A stretch of 64,000 bases of DNA from Selenomonas sp. Lineage in GTDB: Bacteria; Bacillota; Negativicutes; Selenomonadales; Selenomonadaceae. Below are positions 1 to 22,025 of this stretch, one piece after another; the stretch's first letter is position 1; the number at the start of each line of letters is the position of its first letter. The translations under genes and the position numbers were made by a program. The stretch is taken from the NCBI GenBank assembly GCA_022482925.1, contig JAKVOG010000002.1:1-64000 (forward strand), read 5' to 3'. The notes under the pieces were generated by a model. It saw only the letters and a list, made by a program, of their open reading frames with translations. It had not been told where the DNA came from and did no database searches.

Positions 1-1743
1 CAGAGGGCCAGCTGCTGTACGATGGCGGACTGTCTGATCCTTGTCTCCGGTCAGCGCATAGAGCATGGCGACTGCTACCCGCCAGCCTTCGATACTGGCT
101 TTATCGCCGCCGGCCTGCTGGAAGGGCTGGATATGTCCCAGCCGCGTGAAGCCGCTGTAGTCGGCCTGCAGGATTTCTCCGCCCCAGATGGTGCCATCGG
201 TGCCATAGCCGGTGCCGTCGAATGATACGCCGATGACCGGCGTATCCACGTCGTTCTCGGCCATGCAGGCAAGGATGTGGGCGTAGTGGTGCTGGACCGG
301 CAAAACCGGGAGCCCCAGCTCGCGGGCCACAGTCACGGTGTTGTAGCGCGGGTGCAGGTCACAGGCGACGATGGAAGGCTCTGCCTCGAGCAGCGTCGTG
401 AGGCGGCCTATCGTCTCTTTCAGGGCCTGGACCGTGCGCAGGTCGCTCATATCCCCGACATAAGGCGAGGGATAGAATAAGTTATTGCTGCCGACGCAGA
501 ACGTGTTCTTGAGCTCACCGCCGATGCCGAGGACCTGGCCGTGCCAGTCGTTCTTCAGCATGACCGGCAGCGGTGCGAAGCCACGGCTGCGGCGGATCAT
601 ATAGGGGCCTGCCATCCAGCCAGTCCATGACGGTGTCATCGGCCCGGATGCGGATCTTGCGGTTGTGGGACAGCATGAGATCGGTAAAGCCGCTGAGGGC
701 GTCGATGGCTCCCGCATCATCCCGGCAGATCGGAGCGCCCGCCGGATTGCCACTGGTCATGATGAGGGCATCCGGCATCGTCACACTGTCCGGATAGTCG
801 AACAGCAGCATCTGGACCGGTGCATAAGGGAGCATGATGCCAATCTTCGGGTTGCCCGGTGCGGCCAGTTCTGAGAGCTGGCCGGATGAACGGCGGCGGA
901 GCAGCAGGATCGGTTTCTGATGGCCGGTCAGCATGGCTTCCTCGCCCTTCATCCAGCTGGCATTCACGCCGGACGACCGTCATATCACGGGCCATGATTG
1001 CAAACGGTTTGACGGGCCGGTGCTTGAGCTGGCGCAGACGGGCAATGGCAGCAGTCATTGCTGGCATCGCAGCAGAGATGAAAGCCGCCGATGCCCTTGA
1101 TGGCGACAATGCCACCGTCCGCAATCGTCTGGCGGGTGCGGGTGATCGCAGCTGCACCGCGGACGTCCTCCTCACCGATGAGATATACTTCCGGACCGCA
1201 GGTATTGCAGCAGACCGGCTGCGCATCGTAGCGGCGTGTCTCAGGACTGACATATTCTTCGTGGCAGTCTTCACACATCGGGAACTCGCCCATGCTCGTG
1301 CGTTCGCGGTCATACGGCATCGAATCGAGAATCGTGAGGCGGGGGCCGCAGGCCGTGCAGTTGATGAACGGGTGCAGATAGCGGCGGTCCTTTGGATCGA
1401 AGAGTTCAGCCCGGCATTGATCGCAGGTGGCAATATCCGGCGAGACGAAGATGTCGCCACGCTCTTTGGCACTTTCAATGATATCGAACTGTGGATAGGT
1501 TTTCGTTTCAGCCATGGGCTCGGTGTCGACTTTGAGGATAGCAGACCGCTCCGGTGGCTCAGCTTCAAGGGCGGTAAAGAAACCGGCAGTATTGGCCTCG
1601 GTTCCCTGGGCGAATATCTCGACATAGGGGCCTTTGTTGCAGACGCTGCCGGTAATCCGGAACCGTGCCGCCAGCCGGGCCACGAAGGGCCGGAATCCGA
1701 CACCCTGGACGATGCCGTAGACTTTTGTATGATAAAGTGGCAT
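1..1743 (-). CDS. hypF: Carbamoyltransferase HypF (3' end beyond window, three apparent frameshifts)
   Basis: HypF makes the thiocarbamate/cyanide precursor on HypE for the Fe(CN)2CO centre of [NiFe] hydrogenases. Seen: an N-terminal acylphosphatase domain (VYGIVQGVGFRPFV), then paired zinc-finger motifs (CDQC, CTACG, CEDC, CNTCG), then a YrdC-like domain (IKGIGGFHLCCDA, MTSGNPAG, IRRSRGFAPLP) and the start of the Kae1-like domain (VACDLHPRYNT, QHHYAHI, GVSFDGTGYG). About 580 of a usual ~750 residues are visible. The reading frame changes near 1053, 946 and 605, each explained by one extra base, so these look like sequence errors. ATG at 1743 is chosen; an in-frame GTG at 1752 is possible. 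It follows the nitrogenase-like operon by about 40 bp in the same direction. Confidence 0.9.
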
Positions 1744-1783
1744 GATGCTCACTCGCTTTCAAGATGGATTTGGCCGCAGCCTA

Positions 1784-2853
1784 TCAATGGCTGCCGCCAG
1801 ATACCGCAAAATGCGGGAAGGGAAGCCAGCGTCCTGCATAGTCTCGCAGGGCACGGGCAAAGAGCGGGTCGGCAATGATCACATCAGGTGCCTGATCTGT
1901 GACGGCGGCAATCAGATCATCCTCCTCGCGGAGATGCAGATCACCGGGCTGCGTCAGAGCGGCATGCTGCTGGAACCAGGTGGCACACGTTATCTTACAA
2001 TCCGGATAAGCGGTCTTGATGGCTTCGCGCAGTGCATTGGCGGTGATCTGCTGATGGATGATCAGGATCGTATGTGCAGCTGCCAGCGTATTGGCTGCTG
2101 CGTCATCCTGGCTGGCCAGCCAGTCCGTCATCAGTGGATTGCCGATGGTATAGGGGAATCTGGAACGTCTTTTCCAGGTAGCGGGCAGCGGCCAGTCCGG
2201 CCGGGCTGACGACAAGGTTGCGCTCAATGGCGGCAGCTGATTCGTAGTCGTGCAGGCCGTTATCGGTGCCGTAGATCACGACATGACTGGCACCATGGTC
2301 CATCAGCAGGCGGCGCAGATCCTGACTGTCCTGACGGGTGAAATCCATCGGCGTAAGCCCGAGGACGCCGATGCTTTGCGGAATCGTGGCATCAAGCGGG
2401 CGGGTAAAGCGCTCGAAGAGTGCCAGCCAGGCTTTTTCTTCGCCCTTCGTCATAGAGCCGGGTGCCATCCGTATCTACGGTGAGCACTGGCAGGTTCAGC
2501 TGACGTTCTCCCCATGCGCTGCAGAGCCCGCAGGTCCGTGCCGATGACGGCCGGAACCGGCGTGCTGATGAGGGCAGGCAAAGCGGACCGGAATTTCCTG
2601 GCTGGCCTGCCGGATCTTCTGCAGCAGCCGGTCATCCCGGCCCATGATGGCATCCATATCCCGCAGACCGGCACTGAAGACTGCGCTGGCATTGCGTTCG
2701 TTTCTGCCAGCGTGGCTCATCGAAGCCACAGATGTTGCCGGCGCAGCCACCGGCATCGATGATGACAACCATCCCGCCAGCGGGATAGAAGACGCTGGCG
2801 GCGCCGCTCGTGTCCGGAGCAAATGGGGGCAGATACAGTCGTAGTCCCTTCAT
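1784..2853 (-). CDS. Nitrogenase component 1-like subunit, K-like (several frameshifts)
   Basis: The N-terminus ([31 protein letters not shown]) matches the nitrogenase component-1 oxidoreductase family found beside NifH-like reductases in anaerobic Firmicutes. Later pieces also belong to one protein: a middle segment with IGVLGLTPMDFTRQD and a C-terminal segment ending LPFPHFAVSGGSH, about 355 residues in all. The coding frame has to be changed at several points (roughly 2690, 2600, 2460 and 2170), so no single open frame covers it. Its ATG overlaps the stop of the D-like gene (ATGA), implying translational coupling. The Cys pair in GGCAGNIC is a candidate cluster ligand by analogy with NifK. 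It is not true NifK, which is longer and has different motifs. The substrate is unknown. Confidence 0.72.
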
Positions 2854-4143
2854 GCGAACGCCTCCTTCATGCGGATGAACAGGTCGCGGACGGCCTGATA
2901 GCCGAACGGCTGCTGCTCATCGTTCCAGATCACACTGCGGCAGTGCGGGTGATAATACGCGGCATCGGCACCCAGTACGAAATCGACCGGACTCTGGTCC
3001 TCCGTATAGTTGACCATGCTCGGGGAAAGGTTCATATAGAGCCGGGTATCCGGGCTGAGCTCAGCCAGCCGCTGGATATAGAAAAAGTCTGCTGGCTGGG
3101 GAATCGCATAGAGCTCAGCGACCGGCAGGCCATAGCGAACCATAGCGAGCGCCAGCTCAAACGGGTTGGCGTTCAGCCGGCTGCCGATACCCAGGGTGAT
3201 ATCCGGATGTGTCTTCGGTAAATGCTGTGACGGCAGACTGCGCTTCAGTCTGATAGGGTTCATCGATCAGCTTCGTACCCAGCACCTGTCCCAGGCCCTG
3301 GTACTGCCGGCTGATCTTGTCAAGCTGATAGAGGCCGTTTCAGTTCGATTGATGGGATCGAGAGCTGCTTTCTGGAACCAGTCCGCAGCCTCGCGGGCCT
3401 CAGGATTCAGGACCAGATTGAAATTTGCCTCGGCCAGCTGTTGATACTTGTCATAGGTATCACAGCGGGCAATCTCCCGATGGAGCGGATGCCCAGCGTG
3501 CCCGGAGCAGTGCATAGAGCTCACTGCCGGCCATCAACGGCGCGAAATGACCCAGCAGATTCACGGCAGTGGGATCTTTTGCCCGTGGCTCGAGCAGGCT
3601 GTAGATGGTCTGTCGGATTGCCGTCATCGGCGGCTTGCGGCTGTCACGGGTCAGCGCGTACATGTAGCTTGGCAGGACGGGCAGCCCGCAGGCCTCGCTG
3701 GCTTTGCGGCAGACCCGCTCCATATCGGTGCCGAGCAGGGCATCGACGCAGGTGATGCAGATCATGACGACCGAGGGAGGGAGACTGGCGGCTGGCAACG
3801 AATGCCCTTGACCGCTTCCGGTACCTTGGTCAGATGCCGGCCCTGTGACAATGTCGTTCTCGTCCAGCATGAAATAGGCAAAACGTTCGCCATAGTGATC
3901 GCAGCCTCGATGGCAGAGGTATTCCGTCCGCAGCAGCCGGGGGCCAGCAGCAGCATGATGCTGCCAGGGGATGGCAAGACCGGCCCGCTTGACGCCGAAT
4001 CCCTGTGCGCCCGGTGAATTGAAATCGAGGGCGGCCGGAGAATTGTAGATGAGCCCCGTGTCGGTCCGCAGCTCGCGGGGAATATGGTCACGGCCGGCCG
4101 CAGCCAGCTCGCGTATGGTGATGGAATATGGTTTATACGCCAT
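2850..4143 (-). CDS. Nitrogenase component 1-like subunit, D-like (several frameshifts)
   Basis: Assembled across frames, this is a nitrogenase component-1-like protein of about 430 residues. Recognisable segments in order: [20 protein letters not shown], a cysteine motif [13 protein letters not shown] in an alternate frame, [43 protein letters not shown], and a C-terminal part with [15 protein letters not shown] and [16 protein letters not shown]. The conserved-looking cysteines (GCC, CITC) are candidate metal-cluster ligands. At least five compensating indels are needed, which I attribute to sequence error. ATG 4143 follows a Shine-Dalgarno sequence inside the end of the NifH-like gene; ATG 4152 is an alternative. 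It is translationally coupled to both neighbours. Known nitrogenase relatives of this type include CfbD, BchN/B and the methylthio-alkane reductase, but nothing here assigns a substrate. Confidence 0.72.
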
Positions 4144-4898
4144 GATGTTCATCCTTCAGCAGATCCTGCGCCAGTTTGATGAAGCGCTGGCTGATCGGCA
4201 GGGACCGGTCACCTTCGATGACGGTCATGCCCTGCTCCTCGAACGTATTGATGGCATCGCTGCGGGGGATGTCGGCGACAATCTGCAGATTGCGCTGCCG
4301 GGCAAAGGCCTCGACTTTTTCCGTTTCCTGTGGGATATTGCGGCGGTTCAGGATGATGCCGCGCACCTTCGCATAGCCGCGATCGGCAAAATTATCAACG
4401 GCACTGGCAATGTTGTTGGCTGCATAAAGAGCCATTTTCTCACCGGACGTGACGATGAGTACATCCTCGGCATAGCCCTCGCGGATCGGTGCCGCGAAGC
4501 CGCCACAGACGACATCGCCCAGAACATCATACAGCACGATATCCGGCTGGAATGGTCTCAAAGAGCTCCAGGTCCTCGAGCAGACCAAAGGTGGCGATAA
4601 TACCACGGCCGGCACAGCCAAGGCCCGGCGTCGGGCCCCCCGTCTCGATGCAGAGCACACCGCCGAAGCCCGTCCGGGAGATCTGGTCCAGCTGATCCGG
4701 TTCTTTATCAAACTCTCTCATATAACTCATGACTGGCTGAAGCGGCTCGCCACCCAGCAGGTTTATAGTCGAATCCGCTTTCGGATCGCAGCCAATCTGG
4801 ATGACTTTCTTGCCCAGAGCGGCGAATGCAGCGGAGAGATTGCTGGTGATGGTGGACTTACCGATGCCACCTTTTCCGTAGATTGCGATTTTCTGCAT
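4133..4898 (-). CDS. NifH-like nitrogenase-family iron protein (one frameshift)
   Basis: This is an ATP-dependent electron donor of the NifH/BchL/CfbC family. Seen: the P-loop GKGGIGKST at residues 9-17, the switch region GCDPKADST, the first [4Fe-4S] ligand in GLGCAGRGI, and the second in [13 protein letters not shown], so both cysteines that bridge the homodimer are kept. Total length is about 255 residues, close to CfbC/NifH size. One extra base near 4553 breaks the frame between the two cysteine motifs. It is the first gene of a minus-strand operon with the two component-1-like subunits and then hypF. Absence of nifE, nifN or nifB in the window argues against nitrogen fixation, although the left side is not visible. 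Confidence 0.88.
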
Positions 4899-6254: not shown

Positions 6255-6567
6255 CCATTTGATAATGTTAGATTGAAGCTGTCAAGGGACGGGCAATCCG
6301 AATACAGCTAAGGCGCATCGCAGGTTATGCTCTGCGATGCGTTTTTTTAGCAGGCCTTTTTTCCTAGTAAACGATTTCTTTTGGCCTAAATCAGCCCTGA
6401 AATGTGCGCCATGGACGTACAGGTTCTGCCATTGGCTATGCAAGGAAGCTGTCTGTATAGCGTTAGCTGGCAATAATTTTGCAAGGCCTATGTCAAAATG
6501 GTATAATGTCTGAGATAAATGGTCATTTTTACACAGGCGGCAGTTGCCGCGTACAGGAGGTGTCATT
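6255..6567 (+). other. Intergenic and leader region upstream of pncB
   Basis: Holds the terminator of the preceding small gene, about 150 bp in which I see no gene or clear structure (6350-6490), then the pncB promoter and operator-like repeats. Confidence 0.6.
6314..6348 (+). terminator. Terminator after the small unknown gene
   Basis: Arms CGCATCGCAG (6314-6323) and CTGCGATGCG (6332-6341) with an 8-nt loop and a seven-T tail. Confidence 0.88.
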
Positions 6568-6576
6568 TTGACACAG
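6491..6576 (+). promoter_or_regulatory. pncB promoter with repeated operator-like sites
   Basis: An extended -10 (TGG then TATAAT at 6502-6507) drives pncB. Three related sites surround it: TGTCAAAATG (6491-6500) directly upstream of the -10, GTCATTTTTACACAG (6522-6536), and GTCATTTTGACACAG (6562-6576), the last being part of the palindrome TGTCA-TTT-TGACA that overlaps the TTG start. Between the last two is the hairpin GCGGCA/TGCCGC (6537-6550). The arrangement fits a repressor that responds to nicotinate or NAD, but the identity of the regulator is not established here. Confidence 0.5.
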
Positions 6577-8026
6577 TTTGATAAACGCAATATTACCATG
6601 ATGATGGATTTTTATGAACTGACGATGGCGAATGGTTATTTTCAGGATCATGATAAGGATGTTCAGGTTGCTTTCGATGTATTTTATCGGGCAAATCCGG
6701 ACAAGGGCGGTTTTGCTATCTTTGCCGGACTGGAGCAGGTTATTGAATATGTAGAGAATATGGAATTTTCGGCCGATGATGTTGAGTATTTCCGGCAGCA
6801 GCGGATGTTCTCCGAGGAATTCCTGCAGTATCTGGGAAACTTCCATTTTTCCGGAGATATCTATGCATTGCCAGAGGGAACCATCATGTACCCGAATGAG
6901 CCCTGCATTACGGTAGTGGCACCGCTGATCGATGCCCAACTGGTGGAGACGGCCATTTCTGGCACAGACGAATCATCAGTCCCTGATCGCGACCAAGGCC
7001 CGTCGTATTGTCCGGGCAGCAAATGGCCGGGCGGTATCGGATTTTGGTGCCCGTCGGGCACATAACATTGACGCAGCTACCTATGGCGCACGCGCAGCTT
7101 ATATTGGCGGCGTAGTAGGCACAGCTACCGTGTCAGCTGGTCAGCTGTTCAATATCCCCATCTCGGGGACAATGGCCCATAGCTGGGTCATGTTCTACGG
7201 CGATGAATTCATGGCATTCAAGAAATATGCAGAAACCTATCCGGATGCGACAGTGCTGCTGGTAGACACCTATGATGTCATCCATTCCGGCATCCCAAAT
7301 GCTATCCGTGTTGCGCATGAGGTACTCGAACCGATGGGGAAGCGTCTGGCAGGCATCCGTATCGACTCCGGCGATCTGGCCTACTTGTCCAAGCGGGTCC
7401 GCAAGATGCTGGATGCAGCGGACCTCAAGGACTGCAAGATTGTCGTATCAAACAGCCTCGATGAATTCACGGTTACTTCGTTGCTGGGCCAGGGGGCCTG
7501 CATCGATAGCTTTGGCATCGGTGAGCGCCTGATCACGGCCAAATCCGAGCCGGTATTTGGTGCAGTCTATAAGCTGGCGGCCGTAGGTGAGAATGGTGAG
7601 TTCGCTCCGCGGATCAAGGTATCGGAAAATGTAGAGAAAATCACGAATCCTGGTCTCAAGGATCTGTACCGTGTCTATGACAGCAATGGGCATGCTGTGG
7701 CCGATCTGCTGGCAACCTGCGGTGAGTCGTTGGATTTTTCCAAGTCATATCGCTATGTGGATCCGCAGAAACCATGGAAGAACCGCACCTTTGAAGGCTG
7801 CACGCTCAAAAATCTGCGTCGTCTCTATGTGCGTCAGGGCAAGCGCACCGAAAAACTGCCGACACTTGATGAGATTCGCAACTACGTGAAACATCAGCTG
7901 GACGATGAAATCTGGGAAGAAGAGCAGCGATTCGAAAATCCGCATCGGCATTATCTGGATATGACGCCAGCCTATTATGAGCTGAAGATGGAACTGCTCT
8001 CCAAGACCCGCGAAGCACACGCCTGA
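6568..8026 (+). CDS. pncB: Nicotinate phosphoribosyltransferase (one frameshift)
   Basis: Converts nicotinate and PRPP to nicotinate mononucleotide in NAD salvage. About 486 residues, the usual length. Conserved segments: YELTMANGYF near residue 15, then in the second frame TNHQSLIATKARRIV, GTMAHSWVMF with the catalytic-region histidine, TVLLVDTYDV, GIRIDSGDL and IVVSNSLDE. One extra T near 6958 shifts the frame, so two overlapping pieces appear. The TTG at 6568 is chosen because AGGAGGT ends 7 nt upstream. aroE follows after about 20 bp, so the two are probably cotranscribed. Confidence 0.93.
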
Positions 8027-8045
8027 GATAAGGAGGATGTGGACT

Positions 8046-8896
8046 ATGCTGACAGGCACAACGAAGAACCTCGGTGTGATGGGCTGGCCGATTGCTCACT
8101 CACTCTCACCGGTACTGCAGAATGCGGCCATTGCGAAAGCAGGACTGGACTATGTGTACACCTCGCTGCCGGTCCGGCCAGAGCAGCTGGCTGCGGCCGT
8201 GACCGGCCTAAAGGCCCTGCAGTTCCGTGGCTGGAATGTCACGATTCCGCACAAATCGGCCATCATGCCACTGCTTGATGCTATCGATGAAGATGCCCGG
8301 ATCATCGGGGCGGTCAATACCGTTGTCAACGACGGAGGAAAACTGACCGGCTATAATACGGACGTGATCGGATTCATCCAGGCGCTGTTGGACCGGGGAT
8401 TCGATCCGGCAGGCAAAGAAGTGGTTCTTCTCGGTGCTGGCGGGGCTGCCCGTGCAGTGGTCTGGGGACTCATCAAAGCCGGAACCAAAGTCATCCATAT
8501 CGGTGTGCGCAGCCCGAGAAGGTACAGCCATTGGTCGACGAATTTCAGACGTATGGTGCGCTGGATGTGTGCCATTGGGAAAGGGAACCCTTCCAGCAGC
8601 TGCTGGGGACAGCCGATCTGCTCGTCAATACGACCCCACTGGGCATGACGCCGCAGCTGGATGGCATGGCACCGGTTGACTGGTCAAAGGTCAAGGCCTC
8701 CGCATTTGTCTACGATATCATCTACACTCCGGCTGAGACCCGCTTCCTACGCGAAGCCCGTCAGCACGGGCATGCAACGCTCAACGGCGAAGCCATGCTG
8801 GCCGGCCAGGGCGCTGCTGCTTTCCAGAAATGGACCGGCATCCAGCCGGATCTCGCCCTCATGAAACAGAAACTGCGCGAAGCAGTCCAGTCCTAA
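8046..8896 (+). CDS. aroE: Shikimate dehydrogenase (one frameshift)
   Basis: Reduces 3-dehydroshikimate to shikimate with NADPH. About 284 residues. Seen: GWPIAHSLSPVLQNAAI with the substrate-binding serines, NVTIPHKSAI with the catalytic lysine, GAVNTVVN, YNTDVIGF, the Rossmann loop GAGGAARAVVW and, after the frame change, LLVNTTPLGMTP and LNGEAMLAGQGAAAFQ. The frame changes near 8515 where one base appears to be missing. The ATG at 8046 lies 9 nt after AGGAGG; the ATG at 8037 abuts it and is too close. It ends the unit, followed by a strong terminator. Confidence 0.93.
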
Positions 8897-13988: not shown

Positions 13989-14744
13989 ATGTATGATAAT
14001 GAGATAGTTTCTGTAATTACGCCAGTATATAATGCTGAAAAATTTATTAAAGATACAGTTTTATCTGCGGTTAGACAAACCTATAGAAATATGGAAATTG
14101 TTCTTGTCGATGATAAATCGACAGATACATCTGCACAGATTATTAAGAAATTGCAGGACATGTATCCTAATATCATTTATCATTTGCAGCGTGCGAATGG
14201 TGGCGCAGGGATTGCACGTAATGTTGCTTTAGATATAGCTAGAGGAAGATATGTTGCTTTTCTTGATTCTGATGATATATGGGTACCGCAAAAAACTGAA
14301 CTTCAGATAAAGTTAATGAGGGAAGAAAACGCATTTTTTTCATATACTGCAATCGAGATGATTGATGAAGAAGGGAAAACGAAAAAAATGCATAATATTA
14401 AGGAAAAAGTAACTTATGAATTCTTACTTAAAAATACAATAATCGCGACATCTACAGTTATTATCGATAGAAAAAAAACGGGGAAATTTCATATGCATTT
14501 GCGTCGCGGAGGTCAAGATTACGCAACTTGGCTTAAATTATTAAGAAATGGTAGAACGGCGTATGGTATTAATAAAGCATTGACGCAATATCGGGTTAGA
14601 AAGGATTCACTCAGTGCTAATAAAATGGATAGCATTCGTCAAGTCTATGAAGTGCAAACGATTGATGAAGGAATAAATGAGATAATCGGTGCAAGAAATA
14701 CGCTATACTTTGCAATTAATGCTATAAAAAAACATTGGTTTTAA
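13989..14744 (+). CDS. Family 2 glycosyltransferase
   Basis: A 251-residue GT-A-fold transferase. Seen: VSVITPVYNAEKFIKDTV, VDDKSTDTSAQII, GGAGIARNVALDIARGRYVAFLDSDD with the metal-binding DSDD near residue 95, and RRGGQDYATWLKLL in the acceptor region. It probably adds one sugar to the lipid-linked repeat unit on the cytoplasmic face. ATG 13989 follows a GAGAGGCGCG site. GC content falls sharply from here. Confidence 0.88.
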   Translation: MYDNEIVSVITPVYNAEKFIKDTVLSAVRQTYRNMEIVLVDDKSTDTSAQIIKKLQDMYPNIIYHLQRANGGAGIARNVALDIARGRYVAFLDSDDIWVPQKTELQIKLMREENAFFSYTAIEMIDEEGKTKKMHNIKEKVTYEFLLKNTIIATSTVIIDRKKTGKFHMHLRRGGQDYATWLKLLRNGRTAYGINKALTQYRVRKDSLSANKMDSIRQVYEVQTIDEGINEIIGARNTLYFAINAIKKHWF

Positions 14745-14905
14745 GTGAAAAATAAAGGGATTTAATACGTCATAATTTTCTATATACCGTATTATTTATG
14801 TTTGAGTATAGTGCGTGATATTGCAACATATAGTGCTGTGTTTATTCTTGGGGCTGGGATTTGATGTGATGACGTTATTACTACGTTAATGGGGAGAAAA
14901 TCATA

Positions 14906-15682
14906 GTGAATGAGTTAGCAATATTAGTTCTGTCATGTGATAAGTATGCGTTTATATGGAAGCCCTATTTCCAAAATCTAAAAATGATGTGGCCGGATTG
15001 TCCTTATAAAATATATTTATTAACAAATAATAAAAAATATATAGCACAGAATGTTACATCTTTGTGTGTGGGAAATGATACAATGTGGGGAGAAAATCTT
15101 ACTAAGGCATTGAAAAAAATAACGGAAAATTATGTTCTTACAACTTTTGATGATCTTTTTTTTACTTCGAATATTAATACAAATAAAATCTATAGACTTT
15201 TTGAGCTGTTTAAGGAAAAGAATATGAATTATTTGAAATTGAATTATCCGAGGAAGTATGATCTTAAGAGTATTGAAAATCATACTCAAATAGGAGAAAT
15301 TCCACGAGGGATAAGCTACAGATCATCTGCAGTTGCTACAATTTGGAAGAAAGCAGTTTTACTAGATATAAACGATAATGCGTATTCAGCCTGGGATTTT
15401 GAAATAAAAGGTTCTAATAGAACAAATAAGTATGATAAATGGTATGGTAGTTTGGTACAGGATATGCCATTTTTAAATTTGATAATTAAGGGGAAGTGCG
15501 ATCCTAACGTTTATAAATATTTTAAAGAGAAGGGGATAGATTTATCGGATGATAGATTGGTTATTATGAATTATAAGGATCAAATTAGATATGAGCTTAG
15601 GAAAAAATGTTCAGCCTTATTTCATAGATTAGTGCCAAATAAGAAGGGCGCTAGAATTAGAGAAAAATTCCATTTGGTGTAA
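14906..15682 (+). CDS. Probable glycosyltransferase of unassigned family
   Basis: A 258-residue soluble protein (LAILVLSCDKYAFIWKPYF at the start, YKIYLLTNN, ENYVLTTFDDLFFT near residue 90, YRSSAVATIWKKAVL, SAWDFEIKGS). The order beta-strand, acceptor-type helices and a DDxFF motif resembles GT-A glycosyltransferases found in capsule loci, but I cannot place it in a numbered family. The start is the GTG/ATG region at 14906 after GGGGAG. It is AT-rich like its neighbours, consistent with transfer as part of the serotype-specific cassette. Confidence 0.6.
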   Translation: MNELAILVLSCDKYAFIWKPYFQNLKMMWPDCPYKIYLLTNNKKYIAQNVTSLCVGNDTMWGENLTKALKKITENYVLTTFDDLFFTSNINTNKIYRLFELFKEKNMNYLKLNYPRKYDLKSIENHTQIGEIPRGISYRSSAVATIWKKAVLLDINDNAYSAWDFEIKGSNRTNKYDKWYGSLVQDMPFLNLIIKGKCDPNVYKYFKEKGIDLSDDRLVIMNYKDQIRYELRKKCSALFHRLVPNKKGARIREKFHLV

Positions 15683-16036
15683 AAATAAATATTCAACAAA
15701 ATAATAATTAAAATACTGATTCATGTGGCTAGTTTATATATTTTATAGATGAAAGTAGACAATGACTTAATGACAAAAATGAATTTACATTATGCTAACT
15801 AAGAGGCATTATCTAGACTGGGCAATTAGTTGTGATCGATATGGTTGGATGGTTTAGTCGGTTCCTTTTGTATTTTACAAGATTTTATAAACTGACACTT
15901 CTTTAGTTAGTGTAATGATTGATTAATTTTTTGTTTGGAATATAATTTTGTGTTACTCATTATGAGACCACTTACATGAACTACATGGATAGATTAATTA
16001 AATATTTATGTAAAGGGATAAAAGAGTAGATGAAAT
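15683..16036. other. AT-rich gap between two glycosyltransferase genes
   Basis: A 354-bp gap with no supported gene. A short coding-like stretch starts at an ATG near 15793 and is closed by a stop after about 21 codons, continuing in the same frame for another 14, which may be a decayed fragment. I see no terminator with a T run and no clear promoter. Confidence 0.45.
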
Positions 16037-16903
16037 ATGGAAAATGAAAAGAATAAGCTGAAAGAATTTTCAGTATTAATGTCGGTTTATAAAAACGACA
16101 TTGTTGATTTTTTTGAAGAAGCTTTAAAAAGTGTAACAGTAAAACAAAAATTAAAACCGGCTCAAGTCGTAATTGTTAAAGATGGACCAGTAATTAACAA
16201 TATAGATAAAATAATCGTTAGAATAAGAGAAGAAGAACCTGACATAGAGATAACAATTTGTGAAAATTCAACAAATAAAGGATTGGCAGCATCATTGAAT
16301 AAAGGAATAGCGGCATGTAAATATGAATATATTGCTAGAATGGATGCGGATGATATTTCGACGCCAGATCGGTTTTATATTCAAAGAAAATTTTGTGTAG
16401 AAAATCCAAGCTATGGATTGATAGGATCATATATATCGGAGTTTAATTATAAAATTAATGATATAAATTCATTGCGAAAGGTTCCAATAGAACAAGAAAA
16501 AATTGTTGAAATGATGAAAACAAGGAATCCGTTTAATCATATGTCTGTGATGTATAAAAAATCGGATGTAATTAAAGCAGGGGGATATAGTGAAAATATC
16601 GGCAAATTAGAAGACTATAAGTTGTGGATAGATATGGCATTGAATGGTACAAATTTGCATAACATTCCAGCTGTTTTGGTTAATGTAAGAGTAGGAAATG
16701 GTTTTATTAAACGAAGAAGTAGCAGAGAAGAAATAGTAGACTGGGATGATTTGCAGAATTATTTATTACAGAATAGGATAATAGGAATTTATAAATCATA
16801 TATTAATAAGGCATATATAAGGATGTTTACATATACTCCGGATTATATAAAGATAATATTTTATAAATATGTTTTACGGCAAAAAAATAATAAAGATGTT
16901 TGA
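16037..16903 (+). CDS. Family 2 glycosyltransferase
   Basis: A 288-residue GT2 enzyme. Seen: FSVLMSVYKNDIVDFFEEAL, PAQVVIVKDGPV, NKGLAASLNKGIAACKYEYI and ARMDADDIS with the metal-binding DADD near residue 100, then a helical C-terminus. This pattern is common among amylovoran/rhamnan-type and galactosyl transferases of capsule loci. It probably acts on the growing lipid-linked oligosaccharide; donor and linkage cannot be assigned. AT-rich codon use matches the surrounding cassette. Confidence 0.88.
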   Translation: MENEKNKLKEFSVLMSVYKNDIVDFFEEALKSVTVKQKLKPAQVVIVKDGPVINNIDKIIVRIREEEPDIEITICENSTNKGLAASLNKGIAACKYEYIARMDADDISTPDRFYIQRKFCVENPSYGLIGSYISEFNYKINDINSLRKVPIEQEKIVEMMKTRNPFNHMSVMYKKSDVIKAGGYSENIGKLEDYKLWIDMALNGTNLHNIPAVLVNVRVGNGFIKRRSSREEIVDWDDLQNYLLQNRIIGIYKSYINKAYIRMFTYTPDYIKIIFYKYVLRQKNNKDV

Positions 16904-17364
16904 TAGTATAGAAATCTAGATTACATAAAGATAATATTAAATTTAGATAGACTAGAGCGTTTAGTTGAGAAGGAATTGAATAAAGCTCACATAAGATATC
17001 AGCATGTGAGTTAAAAATAAAGAAGGACTGCGTATTGATGGCAAATGGATCAAAGATATGAAGTGGATGTTACAAGCAATAGTGGAGCAGAATTTAGATG
17101 GCTTTATGGAGGCAATGAAAGAGGATGAAGACAAGGTACAAGGTGATTTTACATTGCGATCTATCAGAATCAATATGAACTTGTCAATTGTAGGAAAGTT
17201 CATTACATATGGCGACGTAGACACGTAATTGATTCTTTATAATATGTTATATTGTCGCATATGTGAGAATGATATTAAACCTATTGTATTTGTATGTTCT
17301 TACCTTGAAATCAAATTTATAAAATTATTTAAGAAGATGAGAGAAGTAAGAAAAAGGAGAGAAA
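16904..17364. other. Gap with a possible decayed gene remnant
   Basis: About 460 bp between a glycosyltransferase and the fucosyltransferase. A coding-like frame from about 17010 to 17228 reads GLRIDGKWIKDMKWMLQAIV, then NLDGFMEAMKEDED, with no start site; it faintly recalls the N-terminus of mutator-type transposases but is too short and diverged to call. The rest is AT-rich and featureless. A GGAGAG site just before 17365 belongs to the next gene. Confidence 0.4.
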
Positions 17365-18246
17365 ATGCGTGTTGTAAAAATGAAAGGCGGATTGGGAAAT
17401 CAGTTATTTCAGTATGCTTTTGGCTTAAACTTGCAAAATGAATATAATGATCAGGTTAAATACGATTTTTCTGCGTATAAGTGGAGGATGGATGATCTAA
17501 TACGACAGCCTAGAATATTGAATTTTGATTGTTCTATTGACACTGCAACAGAAACCGAATTATCTGATATATGTATAATTAAACATAGGGGAGATATATT
17601 ATCAAAGTCATATAAGTTCGGAATCCTAATAGAATGCCTATTAAATAAAAGGTATTTATTTAGTAGGTCATGTGAATATATTCCTTTGGATAAAATAAAA
17701 AAATATAATTTTTTTGATGGGTATTGGCAATCTTGGAGATATGCTTATGCTGTAGAAAGTATATTGAGAAAGAACCTAGAAAATAAAAAGATATCAATCA
17801 GTACAAAAAAAATAGCTAAACAAATGAATAAAGAGGAATCGGTTTTTATTGGAATTAGGCGCGGAGATTATATTAATGATTCAAAGAATAGAAAAAAATA
17901 TGGGTTAATGGAGAATGAATACTATCTTAATGCAATGAAGTACATATCAGATAGAATTGATAATCCGGTTTTTTATATATTTTCAAATGATATATGCTGG
18001 GTTAAAAAAAATGTTAATTTTAGAAAATATAATATAAAATATAGGGAAAAAGAATTACAGATAAATGATTTTGAAGAATTTATTCTTATGTCAAATTGTA
18101 GGCATGCAATTATAGCAAATAGCACCTATTATTGGTGGGGAGCATGGATGATAGAGAATAAAGGTAAAATTATTATTGCGCCTAAACATTGGTTCGCAGA
18201 TGGCACATCGGATGATTTAGTTCCCCCTGAGTGGATAAAATTATAA
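17365..18246 (+). CDS. Alpha-1,2-fucosyltransferase (GT11 family)
   Basis: Transfers L-fucose from GDP-fucose. GT11 signatures in order: MKGGLGNQLFQYAFGLNL at residues 5-22, VFIGIRRGDYIND near residue 165 (the HxRRGDY-type donor motif) and IANSTYYWWGAWM near residue 250. The length of 293 residues is normal. The donor can be made by manC, gmd and fcl 5-9 kb downstream, which supports the call. The strict 1,2 linkage is family knowledge, not shown here. Very AT-rich. Confidence 0.92.
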   Translation: MRVVKMKGGLGNQLFQYAFGLNLQNEYNDQVKYDFSAYKWRMDDLIRQPRILNFDCSIDTATETELSDICIIKHRGDILSKSYKFGILIECLLNKRYLFSRSCEYIPLDKIKKYNFFDGYWQSWRYAYAVESILRKNLENKKISISTKKIAKQMNKEESVFIGIRRGDYINDSKNRKKYGLMENEYYLNAMKYISDRIDNPVFYIFSNDICWVKKNVNFRKYNIKYREKELQINDFEEFILMSNCRHAIIANSTYYWWGAWMIENKGKIIIAPKHWFADGTSDDLVPPEWIKL

Positions 18247-18393
18247 AATCATAAATTATGATAAAATGCCTTGAAATTTTCTTTAAAATTAACGAGATAG
18301 AACAGAGAGATTCTATTTAATAATAAGAATATCAATGGCTAGTTGGTGATTAGCAAAATAAGACGTGTATTTTTATTGATACTATAGGGGAAT

Positions 18394-19329
18394 ATGGAAA
18401 TGATTTGCGTGATGATGTCAACATACAATGGGGAAAAATATATTTATGAACAAATTGATTCAATTATTAATCAAAAAGCAGAAGACATATTACTTCTAAT
18501 TAGAGATGATGGATCAGTCGATAGAACGAAAGAAATTATAAATTCGTTTATTGGTAATTTGCCTAATAAAAGGGAGATTATATTATTAGAAGGCGATAAT
18601 ATCGGCGTAGAACGTAGTTTTTATGAACTTATATATTATGCAAAGAGAAAAATAAAAAAGTGCCAATATTATGCCTTCGCTGATCAAGATGATGTTTGGA
18701 ATGAGAATAAATTATTAGTTGCAAGCAAAATATTGGGTACAATGTCATACAATGATCCTAATTTATATTTTTCCAATTTGAAAGTTGTAGATGAAAATTT
18801 AAAATTTATGGGATATAAGTTTAAAAGGGGGTATGTGAAAAATAGCAAAGAATTTATAGTATCGGAAATGTGTGCCTGGGGTTGTACTTGTGTTTTTAAC
18901 TATATGGCATTAAAGGAAATTAGCAGAATTCAGTATTCGTATTTTTTAGCACATGATAACTGGATTTTATGGGTATGTGCATTTTGTGGAAATTTACATT
19001 ATGATTACAATTCATATATACTATATAGACAACATAAAGATAATGCGAGTGGTCAAATTGTATTTGGAGTAAAAAAAATATTAAATGATATAAATAAAGT
19101 GTGTAATATATCTAATATGAGACCTGAGTGTGAGTTGAGAGCCAAACTTATCTTTGATATGTACAATGATAAATTGTCTTTTGCGGATAGAAATTTAATT
19201 AAAAAAATTGCGTTTTATAAAAAAACACCAATAAACCGAATAAAATTGCTGTTTGATTTAAATATTACTTCTGGGCATATAAGAAAAGAGATAGGACGCA
19301 GAATAAGAATAATGATTGGAGCAATTTAG
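18394..19329 (+). CDS. Family 2 glycosyltransferase (rhamnosyltransferase-like)
   Basis: A 311-residue GT2 enzyme. Seen: ICVMMSTYNGEKYIYEQIDS, LLIRDDGSVDRTKEII, NIGVERSFYELIYYA, YYAFADQDDVWNENKL with DQDD near residue 97, and FLAHDNWILWVCAF. The STYNG and ADQDDVW motifs are typical of WbbL/RgpB-type rhamnosyltransferases and relatives. No dTDP-rhamnose genes are in the window, so another donor is possible. It is followed by the GT4 gene after 2 bp. Confidence 0.87.
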   Translation: MEMICVMMSTYNGEKYIYEQIDSIINQKAEDILLLIRDDGSVDRTKEIINSFIGNLPNKREIILLEGDNIGVERSFYELIYYAKRKIKKCQYYAFADQDDVWNENKLLVASKILGTMSYNDPNLYFSNLKVVDENLKFMGYKFKRGYVKNSKEFIVSEMCAWGCTCVFNYMALKEISRIQYSYFLAHDNWILWVCAFCGNLHYDYNSYILYRQHKDNASGQIVFGVKKILNDINKVCNISNMRPECELRAKLIFDMYNDKLSFADRNLIKKIAFYKKTPINRIKLLFDLNITSGHIRKEIGRRIRIMIGAI

Positions 19330-19331
19330 CA

Positions 19332-20459
19332 ATGAAAGTTGTAGCGGTATTTCATGATAATGATATATATAGTGGGGCAACTAGATCATTTCTTAGTATT
19401 ATTGAATATTTTATAGAAAGTGGCATAGAAATTATAGCTATAGTTCCTCATAAATCTGGTGATTTGACTTATTATTTAAAAAAAAATGGCATAGAAGTTG
19501 TACAGGGAGTTTATGGTGGGGCGACGTTTCAAAAAGGAGTTGGCCTTCAAACATTTACTAATTATTTTATTAGTATAATGAAAATGATAATATCTGCATT
19601 ATGGTGCGTAAAAATATATTTTAAGTTGCGGAAAGAAAACATTGATTGGATATATACTAATACATCAACATTATATGTAGGCGCATGGCTGTCTATCATT
19701 TTAGGAGCTAAACATATTTGGCATTTTAGAGAATTTGGATTGTTAGATCAAAATTTCAATAGGATATTTCCTAGTATGTTTATTTATTTAGCAAAAAAAT
19801 CTAGTTATGTCATTGTTATTTCTAATGCATTAAAAGCGTTTTATAAAGAAAAATATCATATTAATAAAAATGTATTGATGTTATACAATGATATTAGTAA
19901 AATGGACGAAATAGAACATAAAAGTCATAAGGGATTGAATATATTAATTACTGGTACAATATCAGAAGGGAAAGGTCAGAAAATAGCAATTGACGCTATG
20001 AAAAAAATAGATGATGATGAAATTAGACTTTATATTGCAGGTAAAATAAATAGATATGCTAGGCAGTTGATGTCCTATGTTAATAAAGAAAATATAAATA
20101 ATATTGAGTTCTGTGGATTTGTTAAAGATATGCATTTGCTCAGACGTAATATAGATATCTCGGTAGTGTGTTCGGCAAGTGAAGCATTTGGACGAACTAT
20201 TATAGAAGATATGTTATCTGGTATATTAGTTATAGGAAACAATGCTGGTGCAGTACCCGAGCTTTTAGAAAATAATCATGGTGTGATTTTTCAATACAAT
20301 GACGCTGATAAACTTGCAAAAGAAATAATTAATATTAAAGATAACTGGTCTAGTATGGGTCGTATGATTGATGGTGCTCGTAGTTATGCAAATAAGTTCA
20401 CAAGTAAATGCACTGCAAAAAAAATATGTAAATTGATATTATCGGAGGCAGAAGTGTGA
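19332..20459 (+). CDS. Family 4 glycosyltransferase
   Basis: A 375-residue GT-B-fold retaining transferase. The N-terminal half starts VFHDNDIYSGATRSFLSI and contains HIWHFREFGL; the C-terminal half has LITGTISEGKGQKIAIDAM, IEFCGFVKDM and the donor motif SASEAFGRTIIEDMLSG with the E-x7-E pair, then NNAGAVPELLE. Donors of this family are usually NDP-sugars with retention of configuration. It overlaps the Wzy gene by 4 bp (GTGA). Confidence 0.9.
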   Translation: MKVVAVFHDNDIYSGATRSFLSIIEYFIESGIEIIAIVPHKSGDLTYYLKKNGIEVVQGVYGGATFQKGVGLQTFTNYFISIMKMIISALWCVKIYFKLRKENIDWIYTNTSTLYVGAWLSIILGAKHIWHFREFGLLDQNFNRIFPSMFIYLAKKSSYVIVISNALKAFYKEKYHINKNVLMLYNDISKMDEIEHKSHKGLNILITGTISEGKGQKIAIDAMKKIDDDEIRLYIAGKINRYARQLMSYVNKENINNIEFCGFVKDMHLLRRNIDISVVCSASEAFGRTIIEDMLSGILVIGNNAGAVPELLENNHGVIFQYNDADKLAKEIINIKDNWSSMGRMIDGARSYANKFTSKCTAKKICKLILSEAEV

Positions 20460-21787
20460 ACATTGTAATTATTATATTGACAAGTATCTTGTGTATATTT
20501 TGTTATAGACAAGATACTTGTGTTTATAATCCAGCTGGAGTGTATTCGTTATTTTGGTTAATGATGATGATTTTAGCATCATTTCAGTTTTATGATATAT
20601 ATGCTATTAGCGATGAGACATATATGCTTTCAGTTCTTAGCGTATGCTCTTTTATTGTTGGATATCACTTAAGAAAGATAATAAGATTCACGAGTGATGA
20701 AAATGATCAAATTAAATCCAGGCCAAGTGAAATTAATATAAAAAGATATTATATATTACTTGTTACTTGTTTAGTTTCAGTTTGGCAAAATTATGTTTTG
20801 ATTGGAGTGGTTTATTCACAAGGATTAAATATAGGGGCAGCATATCAGCTGATGGCTAGAGCTGTAACCGGACAGGCGGAAGAACTAGCAGATATTTATA
20901 CAGATATTGGGTCTCAGGTTCAACAATATATTGGATATCCGTTATTGTATTTATTAATTCCTATTTCAATATTATTATATTATAAAACTTTAAAAAAAAG
21001 GTATGTACTAATTGTATTATTGTTATTCTTGATAAGGTTTTTAGCCGATTTTAAGCGTACAATTTTGGTATTTATTATATTATTTTTTGCGTTTTATGCA
21101 GTGCTACTAAGAAAAAAAATTATGGTGATGGCACGAGAAAATCCATTGGTAAAAAGGAAACTAAAATATTTATCAGTTGCTTTATCTGCATTACTGTTAT
21201 TGACATTTGTTATTATTTCCGCTTTTCGAAGTGATGAAGTTGGCGAGTCATATAGTGTCTTTCAAAATTTCTATTATTATTATATTGGCTGTTTTAAACT
21301 GTTGGATATTCGAGTCGAAGAATGGGATTTGTTAAATATTGACCATACATTGGGGTTTACTACGTTTAGAGGAGTGATTGCACCATTTTTTGCTGGACTT
21401 AAATTGTTAACAGGTGTAGATGCATCAGGTGTGTTTGCTGATGCAACGTATTTGGTTAATTCATTACATAATTATGTAGTTTATATTTCTTCTGGTCATT
21501 TATATAATACATATACTACCAATATATTCCAATTCTATTGTGATGGTGGCTTACTAGGAGTTTGCGTTTTATCAATGATTTATGGATGGATATCATCTGC
21601 CTATTATAAAAAATATCGTGAAATAGGTGATGTACGAAGTATATTTAATTTTGGCTATTTTTTTTGCATATTTATTTTATTTACGAATATGCATATAAAT
21701 TCAATCGTTATATGTTACGTATGGCCGCTGATTTTGGAAAGGTTTATTTTTAAAAAAATAAGTGATGTAAATATGAAAAATAAATGA
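20456..21787 (+). CDS. wzy: O-antigen/capsule polymerase Wzy
   Basis: A 443-residue very hydrophobic protein with about 10-12 predicted membrane helices and a periplasmic loop near residues 270-350, the topology of Wzy polymerases. Wzy proteins share almost no sequence, so the call rests on topology, size and position between glycosyltransferase genes and Wzx/Wzz. A charged central segment (RSDEVGESYSVF) and the late LHNYVVYISSGHLYNTYTTN region are typical. It joins repeat units at the outer face of the membrane. GTG start overlapping the GT4 stop. Confidence 0.8.
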   Translation: MNIVIIILTSILCIFCYRQDTCVYNPAGVYSLFWLMMMILASFQFYDIYAISDETYMLSVLSVCSFIVGYHLRKIIRFTSDENDQIKSRPSEINIKRYYILLVTCLVSVWQNYVLIGVVYSQGLNIGAAYQLMARAVTGQAEELADIYTDIGSQVQQYIGYPLLYLLIPISILLYYKTLKKRYVLIVLLLFLIRFLADFKRTILVFIILFFAFYAVLLRKKIMVMARENPLVKRKLKYLSVALSALLLLTFVIISAFRSDEVGESYSVFQNFYYYYIGCFKLLDIRVEEWDLLNIDHTLGFTTFRGVIAPFFAGLKLLTGVDASGVFADATYLVNSLHNYVVYISSGHLYNTYTTNIFQFYCDGGLLGVCVLSMIYGWISSAYYKKYREIGDVRSIFNFGYFFCIFILFTNMHINSIVICYVWPLILERFIFKKISDVNMKNK

Positions 21788-21938
21788 TAGATTTAAGGCG
21801 TATTGGTGTGGTGTTTATGAAAATGATTTAATTCATAGAATAACTCCGTTAAATATTTCTACCAATATTAATTGTGATGCATTATAGTTTTACGATCAAT
21901 ATAGAAATGAGTAGTATTATATTAAATAAAATTTCTTC

Positions 21939-21970
21939 AAAACTTATAAAAATAAATTTTTATAAGTTTT
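21939..21970 (+). terminator. Hairpin downstream of wzy
   Basis: Perfect 14-bp stem AAAACTTATAAAAA (21939-21952) and TTTTTATAAGTTTT (21957-21970) with a 4-nt loop. It is AT-only in large part and lacks a separate T tail, so it may be a weak terminator that an antiterminator would override, or an element end. Confidence 0.5.
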
Positions 21971-22025
21971 CCGAATATCTACTACCATTGCCTTATTCCT
22001 ATCCTGTTATCAGAATTGTGTACTA

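Follow-up and report, generated by a model that had tools for sequence, protein, structure and literature searches.

The first 64,000 nucleotides of contig JAKVOG010000002.1 from a Selenomonas sp. genome (assembly GCA_022482925.1), referred to here as the window, form one end of that contig (C2 of genome G000) and begin with nitrogenase-like genes that run directly into hypF. These genes are the first half of a nine-gene set, H-D1-K1-hypF-hypC-hypD-hypE-D2-K2, whose probable part in the maturation of [FeFe]-hydrogenase is the subject of this report. The window carries the following members of the set:

4133-4898, minus strand: H (H1), ATP-dependent reductase of NifH-like type that partners D1K1 (two PF00142 pieces, 138.8 and 141.9 bits)
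2850-4152, minus strand: D1, nitrogenase component-1-like subunit with several apparent assembly indels (PF00148 piece)
1784-2853, minus strand: K1, nitrogenase component-1-like subunit (PF00148 piece, 32.9 bits; alignment of relatives)
1-1752, minus strand: hypF, carbamoyltransferase, its 3' part cut at the contig end (TIGR00143 in two pieces)

A preliminary description of this DNA had proposed a nitrogenase-like H-D-K operon followed by hypF, and the matches to PF00142, PF00148 and TIGR00143 confirm it. The frame of H is broken by an apparent assembly indel near 4547-4556; its two pieces are 94 and 97% identical to the intact copy of the relative G015, and both cluster cysteines are present ([14 protein letters not shown]). 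PF00148 matches of D1 and K1 are weak in the indel-ridden window copy, and the D1 piece, at 26.8 bits, is just below the cut-off of 28.6. The start of K1 overlaps the stop of D1 as ATGA (2853-2850), and the stop of K1 at 1784 is separated from the start of hypF by 31 base pairs (bp; GTG at 1752) or 40 bp (ATG at 1743). The window copy has the motifs [12 protein letters not shown] and GGCAGNIC, whose cysteines are invariant in 9/9 intact relatives. hypF continues on contig C10 (locus L030); the two contig ends overlap by 675 bp inside hypF at 96.4% identity. Beyond hypF, C10 carries hypC, hypD and hypE, which the preliminary description had suggested looking for, and then a second component-1 pair, D2 and K2, outside the window. 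H, D1 and K1 are one module of a larger set rather than a stand-alone reductase; the preliminary description had thought of a reductase of unknown substrate.

In each of the nine genes, comparison with G015 over ungapped pieces of at least 70% identity shows differences of 3-12% at codon positions 1 and 2 and of 30-42% at position 3. With pieces of at least 80% identity, which come from H, HypF, HypC, HypD, HypE and D2 only (no D1, K1 or K2 piece), positions 1, 2 and 3 differ by 6.9, 5.4 and 35.1% over 2,426 codons. This pattern speaks for working genes, so that a pseudogene reading is rejected and the indels of the cluster look like assembly errors. Unrelated genes at 6544-8026 and 8037-8896 of the window also contain frameshift-like breaks, judged by eye, which fits indel errors across the assembly.

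The set is conserved well beyond this genome. Among 60 related genomes, the present one counted, a D1 piece is matched at E 0.001 in 17 and strongly (E below 1e-60) in ten. In all nine other strong genomes D1-K1-hypF-hypC and D2-K2 are present, and eight have the full order from H to K2. Intact D1 orthologs occur in nine relatives; measured against that of locus L037, the other eight are 50-59% identical. A D1 profile run over a one-genome-per-species collection found 490 encoding stretches, of which the best 80 were kept (the 80 loci). By their titles these belong to Bacillota, Coriobacteriaceae and other actinobacteria, and Lentisphaeria; many of the cluster-bearing bacteria are from animal guts, and the isolates include Blautia massiliensis, Anaerobutyricum hallii, Megasphaera massiliensis and Clostridium luticellarii. 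By tblastn, the 80 loci hold H in 77, D1 in 80, K1 in 76, HypF in 70, HypC in 64, HypD in 64, HypE in 62, D2 in 58 and K2 in 53. All ten loci without HypF stop no more than about 260 bp from their final cluster gene, which puts the shortfall down to contig ends. The preliminary description had left the adjacency of hypF to either chance or a shared Fe(CN)/CO chemistry; conservation in 70/80 loci rejects chance, and the link to Fe(CN)/CO chemistry stands. D1 and K1 share a single open frame in 11 of the 92 loci in which D1 is matched; a model of such a natural fusion reached a predicted template-modelling score (pTM) of 0.58 and is not relied on.

The gene set co-occurs with the [FeFe]-hydrogenase HydA, in most cases along with HydE and HydF; in neither of two samples does it occur together with HydG. 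Among the 60 genomes, HydG exceeds its cut-off (TIGR03955) in 39 and HydA is present in 56. All ten cluster genomes have HydA and none has HydG, which is found in 39 of the 50 others (Fisher p 4.7e-6, shared ancestry being ignored in this and the following p values); among HydA-positive genomes alone, HydG is present in 0/10 cluster genomes versus 39/46 others (p 5.5e-7). HydE and HydF are each present in 9/10 cluster genomes. The second sample is an even draw of 392 genomes from Clostridia, the class of Blautia massiliensis, for which a completeness of at least 95 was requested. Here D1 of this type (over 540 bits) occurs in 17 genomes, HydG in 232, and both in none, which gives 0/17 versus 232/375 (p 1.4e-7; lists compared by eye) in a test that spans all 392 genomes and not the HydA-positive ones alone. 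Fourteen Clostridia with weaker A1 matches (137-234 bits), six with HydG and eight with none, are not counted as cluster genomes. HydA is also present in 50/50 cluster genomes taken from the 80 loci and chosen for longer contigs or for being isolates; this set shares a few genomes with the other two samples (G015 and G039, at least these two being also among the ten, and G083, G095, G096 and G104). Within 90 cluster loci there is no HydG match over 100 bits.

Genes of [FeFe]-hydrogenase maturation are also found beside the cluster. HydF is present in 30/80 loci and HydE in 14/80. Only one further gene is present in more than 14 loci; it encodes a protein of 80-90 residues, a representative of which passes the model of the TM1266 iron-only-hydrogenase regulator (109.6 bits, cut-off 60.8); it occurs in 30/80 loci by blastp and 37/80 by tblastn. 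AspA is linked in a few loci. At least one of HydE, HydF, AspA and TM1266 is present in 46/80 loci and in 36 of 48 complete loci; L123, with a weak HydA-like match (161 bits, cut-off 450) that is not relied on, was counted in an earlier 47/80 and is excluded from the 46. In L098 and L107, hydE-hydF is located between D1 and K1. In L170, genes on one strand read hydA-H-D1-K1-hypFCDE-TM1266-D2-K2-hydF, with hydF cut by the end of the stretch, and this hydA encodes a full [FeFe]-hydrogenase (NF040763, 776 bits versus a cut-off of 765). Upstream of it on the same strand lies an oxidoreductase gene with NADH_4Fe-4S and Pyr_redox_2 domains, for which an identity as hydB was dropped on these Pfam matches. 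As a control, HydE, HydF, TM1266, HydA, AspA and HydG are found in 0/10 [NiFe]-linked Hyp loci of 11-15 kilobases each. The tie of the set is to [FeFe]-hydrogenase maturation and not to a [NiFe]-hydrogenase nearby.

The Hyp set of the cluster is a second, divergent copy in 8/10 cluster genomes, which have two copies of HypD, one by the [NiFe] genes and the other in the cluster. When compared with the cluster reference L037, whose HypF, HypC, HypD and HypE exceed their NCBIfam cut-offs, the [NiFe]-linked HypC, HypD and HypE of eight genomes are 36-46% identical and the cluster copies 53-76% identical. Catalytic residues are kept (PRIC of HypE in 71/72 and Met-Cys of HypC in 77/77 scored copies), and cluster HypC is shorter, 62-75 versus 76-96 residues. 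The cluster Hyp proteins thus resemble the HypCDEF machinery of [NiFe]-hydrogenase in family score and catalytic residues, and differ from it in being a separate copy with a shorter HypC, which in G039 stands without a [NiFe] large subunit; HypD of that genome is found in the cluster only. In G023, the only HypD adjoins [NiFe] genes; the cluster of this genome keeps hypF and hypC, and not hypD and hypE, which suggests that HypC may set the destination.

The nitrogenase-like proteins are not nitrogenase proper, as first supposed. Intact H scores below the NifH equivalog cut-off (306.5 versus 394.35 bits) and below those of CfbC (295.9 versus 402), BchL (208.7 versus 345) and BchX (196.5 versus 331). 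The best PDB profile match of D1, K1, D2 and K2 is NifE or a NifE-containing fusion; for D1, the NifE match is at 3e-14 and chains 9d9u and 9fmg of methylthio-alkane reductase (MAR) are weaker, at 2e-6. In trees, which the preliminary description had proposed as a check, H, D1 and K1 do not fall among the Nif and Bch references. The component-1 tree comprises 67 rows; D1 forms a clade there with support 99 and K1 one with support 100, and the D-type and K-type proteins of the lineage, importer-linked relatives included, are each a clade apart from Nif and Bch (100 each); support is by the Shimodaira-Hasegawa-like approximate likelihood-ratio test after a short search with no bootstrap, and the Bch and Sporomusa rows are long-branched and unsure. 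BchL, BchN and BchB fall outside the lineage in the H tree (one H row with a stop excluded) and the component-1 tree, on long branches. CfbC, CfbD, MarHDK and BchXYZ rows are absent from the trees, and comparison with CfbC/CfbD and MarHDK is by profile scores only.

A model of D2 has the component-1 fold (predicted local distance difference test score 91.9, pTM 0.90) and, among the 50 rows listed, template-modelling scores of 0.59-0.70 to Nif, NifEN, MAR and dark-operative protochlorophyllide oxidoreductase (DPOR) chains alike. Two of the three cysteines that NifD and NifE share in their first half align in D1 and D2. The third, at the presumed cofactor site, does not; this position is N, D, S or T in 9/9 D1 rows and mixed in D2, with cysteine in 2/12 rows. 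The missing cysteine argues for the D1 and D2 complexes being iron-sulfur reductases that act on a bound substrate, rather than enzymes with an iron-molybdenum (FeMo) cofactor. A nitrogen-fixation operon is rejected on this replacement, on the H score below the NifH cut-off and on the place of the proteins apart from Nif in the trees. The likeness to NifEN and NifH, the scaffold of the FeMo-cofactor, consists in the fold, the best profile matches and the pairing of a reductase with a two-subunit partner; the replaced cysteine and the separate clades set the cluster proteins apart. With MarHDK and BchLNB the likeness is the fold that the D2 model shares with MAR and DPOR chains, and the H scores and the outside position of the Bch rows distinguish the cluster from BchLNB and, for the CfbC score, from CfbCD.

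A variant of the system is found among the 14 Clostridia with weaker A1 matches. Six of these, all without HydG (G166, G223, G285, G347, G388 and G441), carry H-D2-K2 of the same type along with FecBCD-type importer genes and hydE, hydF or TM1266; within the stretch read, neither D1K1 nor Hyp is matched. The H tree joins five rows of this variant to the second H of most full clusters (support 99) and places that of Megasphaera among the H1 rows. On these grounds D2K2 may be the common core, with Hyp and D1K1 as one source of precursor and an importer as another, and the FecBCD-type importer hints at uptake of an iron compound as the precursor. The other eight have H-D-K with FecBCD-type importer genes and no hyd genes, and HydG is present in 6/8 of these genomes; they are no control because they were set apart for lacking hyd genes. 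Their loci are L156, L157 (no H match; starts near a contig end), L158 (a HydF-like match at 31% is not relied on), L162, L166, L167, L168 and L169; a possible role is the import and reduction of an iron or tetrapyrrole compound. A distant relative is seen on a Sporomusa termitida plasmid (L140, 9074-15273), where iron ABC transporter genes precede a NifH-like gene, which is 56.6% identical to H, and a pair of component-1 genes.

The link of the gene set to assembly of the H-cluster is strong, and we put at about 0.78 the probability that the nine-gene operon replaces HydG, a radical S-adenosylmethionine enzyme, in [FeFe]-hydrogenase maturation. Excerpts of three sources state that HydG produces CO and CN from tyrosine, and also an Fe(CO)2(CN) unit, that Hyp proteins convert carbamoyl phosphate to cyanide, and that nitrogenase Fe proteins can reduce CO2 to CO (PMC9431212, PMC12134894, PMC9571451). 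On this reading, HypF and HypE of the cluster would turn carbamoyl phosphate into cyanide, and the short dedicated HypC with HypD would carry an Fe-cyanide/CO unit. Two ATP-driven nitrogenase-like complexes, D1K1 with H and D2K2 with H or H2, would supply low-potential electrons, most simply for the reduction of CO2 to CO, a step proposed by analogy, or for the conversion of a Hyp-type Fe(CN)2CO unit to the Fe(CO)2(CN) unit used by HydE. Assembly of the two-iron cluster and its insertion into HydA would then fall to HydE and HydF. That nitrogenase-like reductases carry out the CO-making step is a tentative proposal, to which we give slightly less than even odds. The whole scheme, a second biological route to the H-cluster in which Hyp proteins give iron-bound cyanide, reductases either generate CO from CO2 or turn Fe(CN)2CO into the substrate of HydE, and HydE and HydF finish, is plausible and falls somewhat short of an even chance. 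Compared with HydEFG maturation, the target enzyme would be the same by genome evidence, and HydE, HydF, TM1266 and, in a few loci, AspA are shared; the difference is that nine other genes stand in the place of HydG (0/10 and 0/17 cluster genomes).

Several observations weigh against the replacement of HydG. The p values for exclusion take no account of shared ancestry. The cluster of the present genome (window and L030) has no hyd gene in the stretches read, only L034 and L039 of the nine related loci L031-L039 hold hyd genes, and 34/80 loci are without any in the stretch read, many of them cut by contig ends. The HydE of the present genome, at 355 bits (cut-off 255), falls into a class of lower scores; G032 carries the cluster together with HydA, and neither HydE nor HydF; and the cluster of G023 lacks hypD, hypE and a nearby H. 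Excerpts of a Clostridium survey report three species, C. autoethanogenum, C. drakei and C. scatologenes, with both HydG and hypFCDE (PMC9431212); these are possible counterexamples. In an aerobic [NiFe] system, labelling excluded added CO2 as a direct source of CO, according to an excerpt of another paper (PMC12134894). Seven HydA-positive genomes of the 60 have neither HydG nor the cluster (G021, 82% complete, G030, G034, G042, G050, G055 and G057); the absence of HydG therefore has other answers too. In G030, hypF is directly behind hydABC (L052, 7944-13744), and in G034 hypCDE is beside hydABC (L043, 7556-13554); neither has a match to D1, D2, K1 or K2 in the stretches read, which are not whole genomes.

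The lack of hyd genes at the present locus and in the 34 loci would also be expected if the cluster made an Fe(CN)/CO cofactor for another enzyme, the presence of HydA and absence of HydG being a by-product of lifestyle. This is improbable given that hydE-hydF lies inside the operon in L098 and L107, that hydA and hydF flank it in L170, that TM1266 is found in 30/80 loci, and that exclusion with HydG recurs in two samples. It is less probable still that the Hyp genes serve [NiFe]-hydrogenase beside an unrelated reductase. A PF00374 match is indeed present in 57/60 relatives and is full-length in 9/10 cluster genomes, and the only HypD of G023 could serve both systems. Eight of those nine genomes, however, have a further Hyp set beside their [NiFe] genes, G039 has the full cluster set without a [NiFe] large subunit, and hypF adjoins the nitrogenase-like genes in 70/80 loci.

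A closer rival keeps the contribution to H-cluster maturation and differs in the chemistry: the complexes would make no CO, and would reduce or assemble an iron synthon on HypCD or HydE, much as NifEN and NifH do in FeMo-cofactor assembly. The NifE-type profile matches of all four component-1 proteins fit it, as does the retention of H-D2-K2 with hydE, hydF or TM1266 in the variant that has no hyp genes nearby; it is opposed by the loss in D1 and D2 of the cofactor-site cysteine common to NifD and NifE, and it leaves the source of CO open. We consider it a serious possibility, if not quite an even bet.

Elsewhere in the window, G+C falls to about 28-31% within 14001-22000, as compared with about 50-60% in much of the window; the low-G+C stretch begins near a glycosyltransferase-like gene, judged by eye.

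No description of this system was found in the open PMC literature, subscription papers and preprints being outside the search. In the Clostridium survey, as excerpted, no hydG was detected in five of eight species, HypCDEF occurred without HypAB in five, and hypF, C, D and E stood on consecutive locus tags, without hypA or hypB, in several acetogens, most of which had no detectable hydG (PMC9431212). The survey itself states that it has no straightforward explanation for the missing hydG, and it offers hypotheses, an atypical HydG-like gene being one of them (PMC9431212). We infer that the hypFCDE genes of these acetogens belong to the cluster described here. An excerpt of PMC12134894 ranks the anaerobic source of the CO ligand in [NiFe] maturation as the most pressing of the open questions, and the gene set may join two puzzles, the missing hydG of acetogens and the anaerobic source of CO. 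It also names testable genes in isolates, namely Blautia massiliensis, Anaerobutyricum hallii, Megasphaera massiliensis and Clostridium luticellarii. If the proposed replacement of HydG is true, it would provide a new means of building or engineering [FeFe]-hydrogenases, and a role would be assigned to a so far uncharacterised lineage of nitrogenase-like proteins, encoded in 490 stretches of the one-genome-per-species collection.

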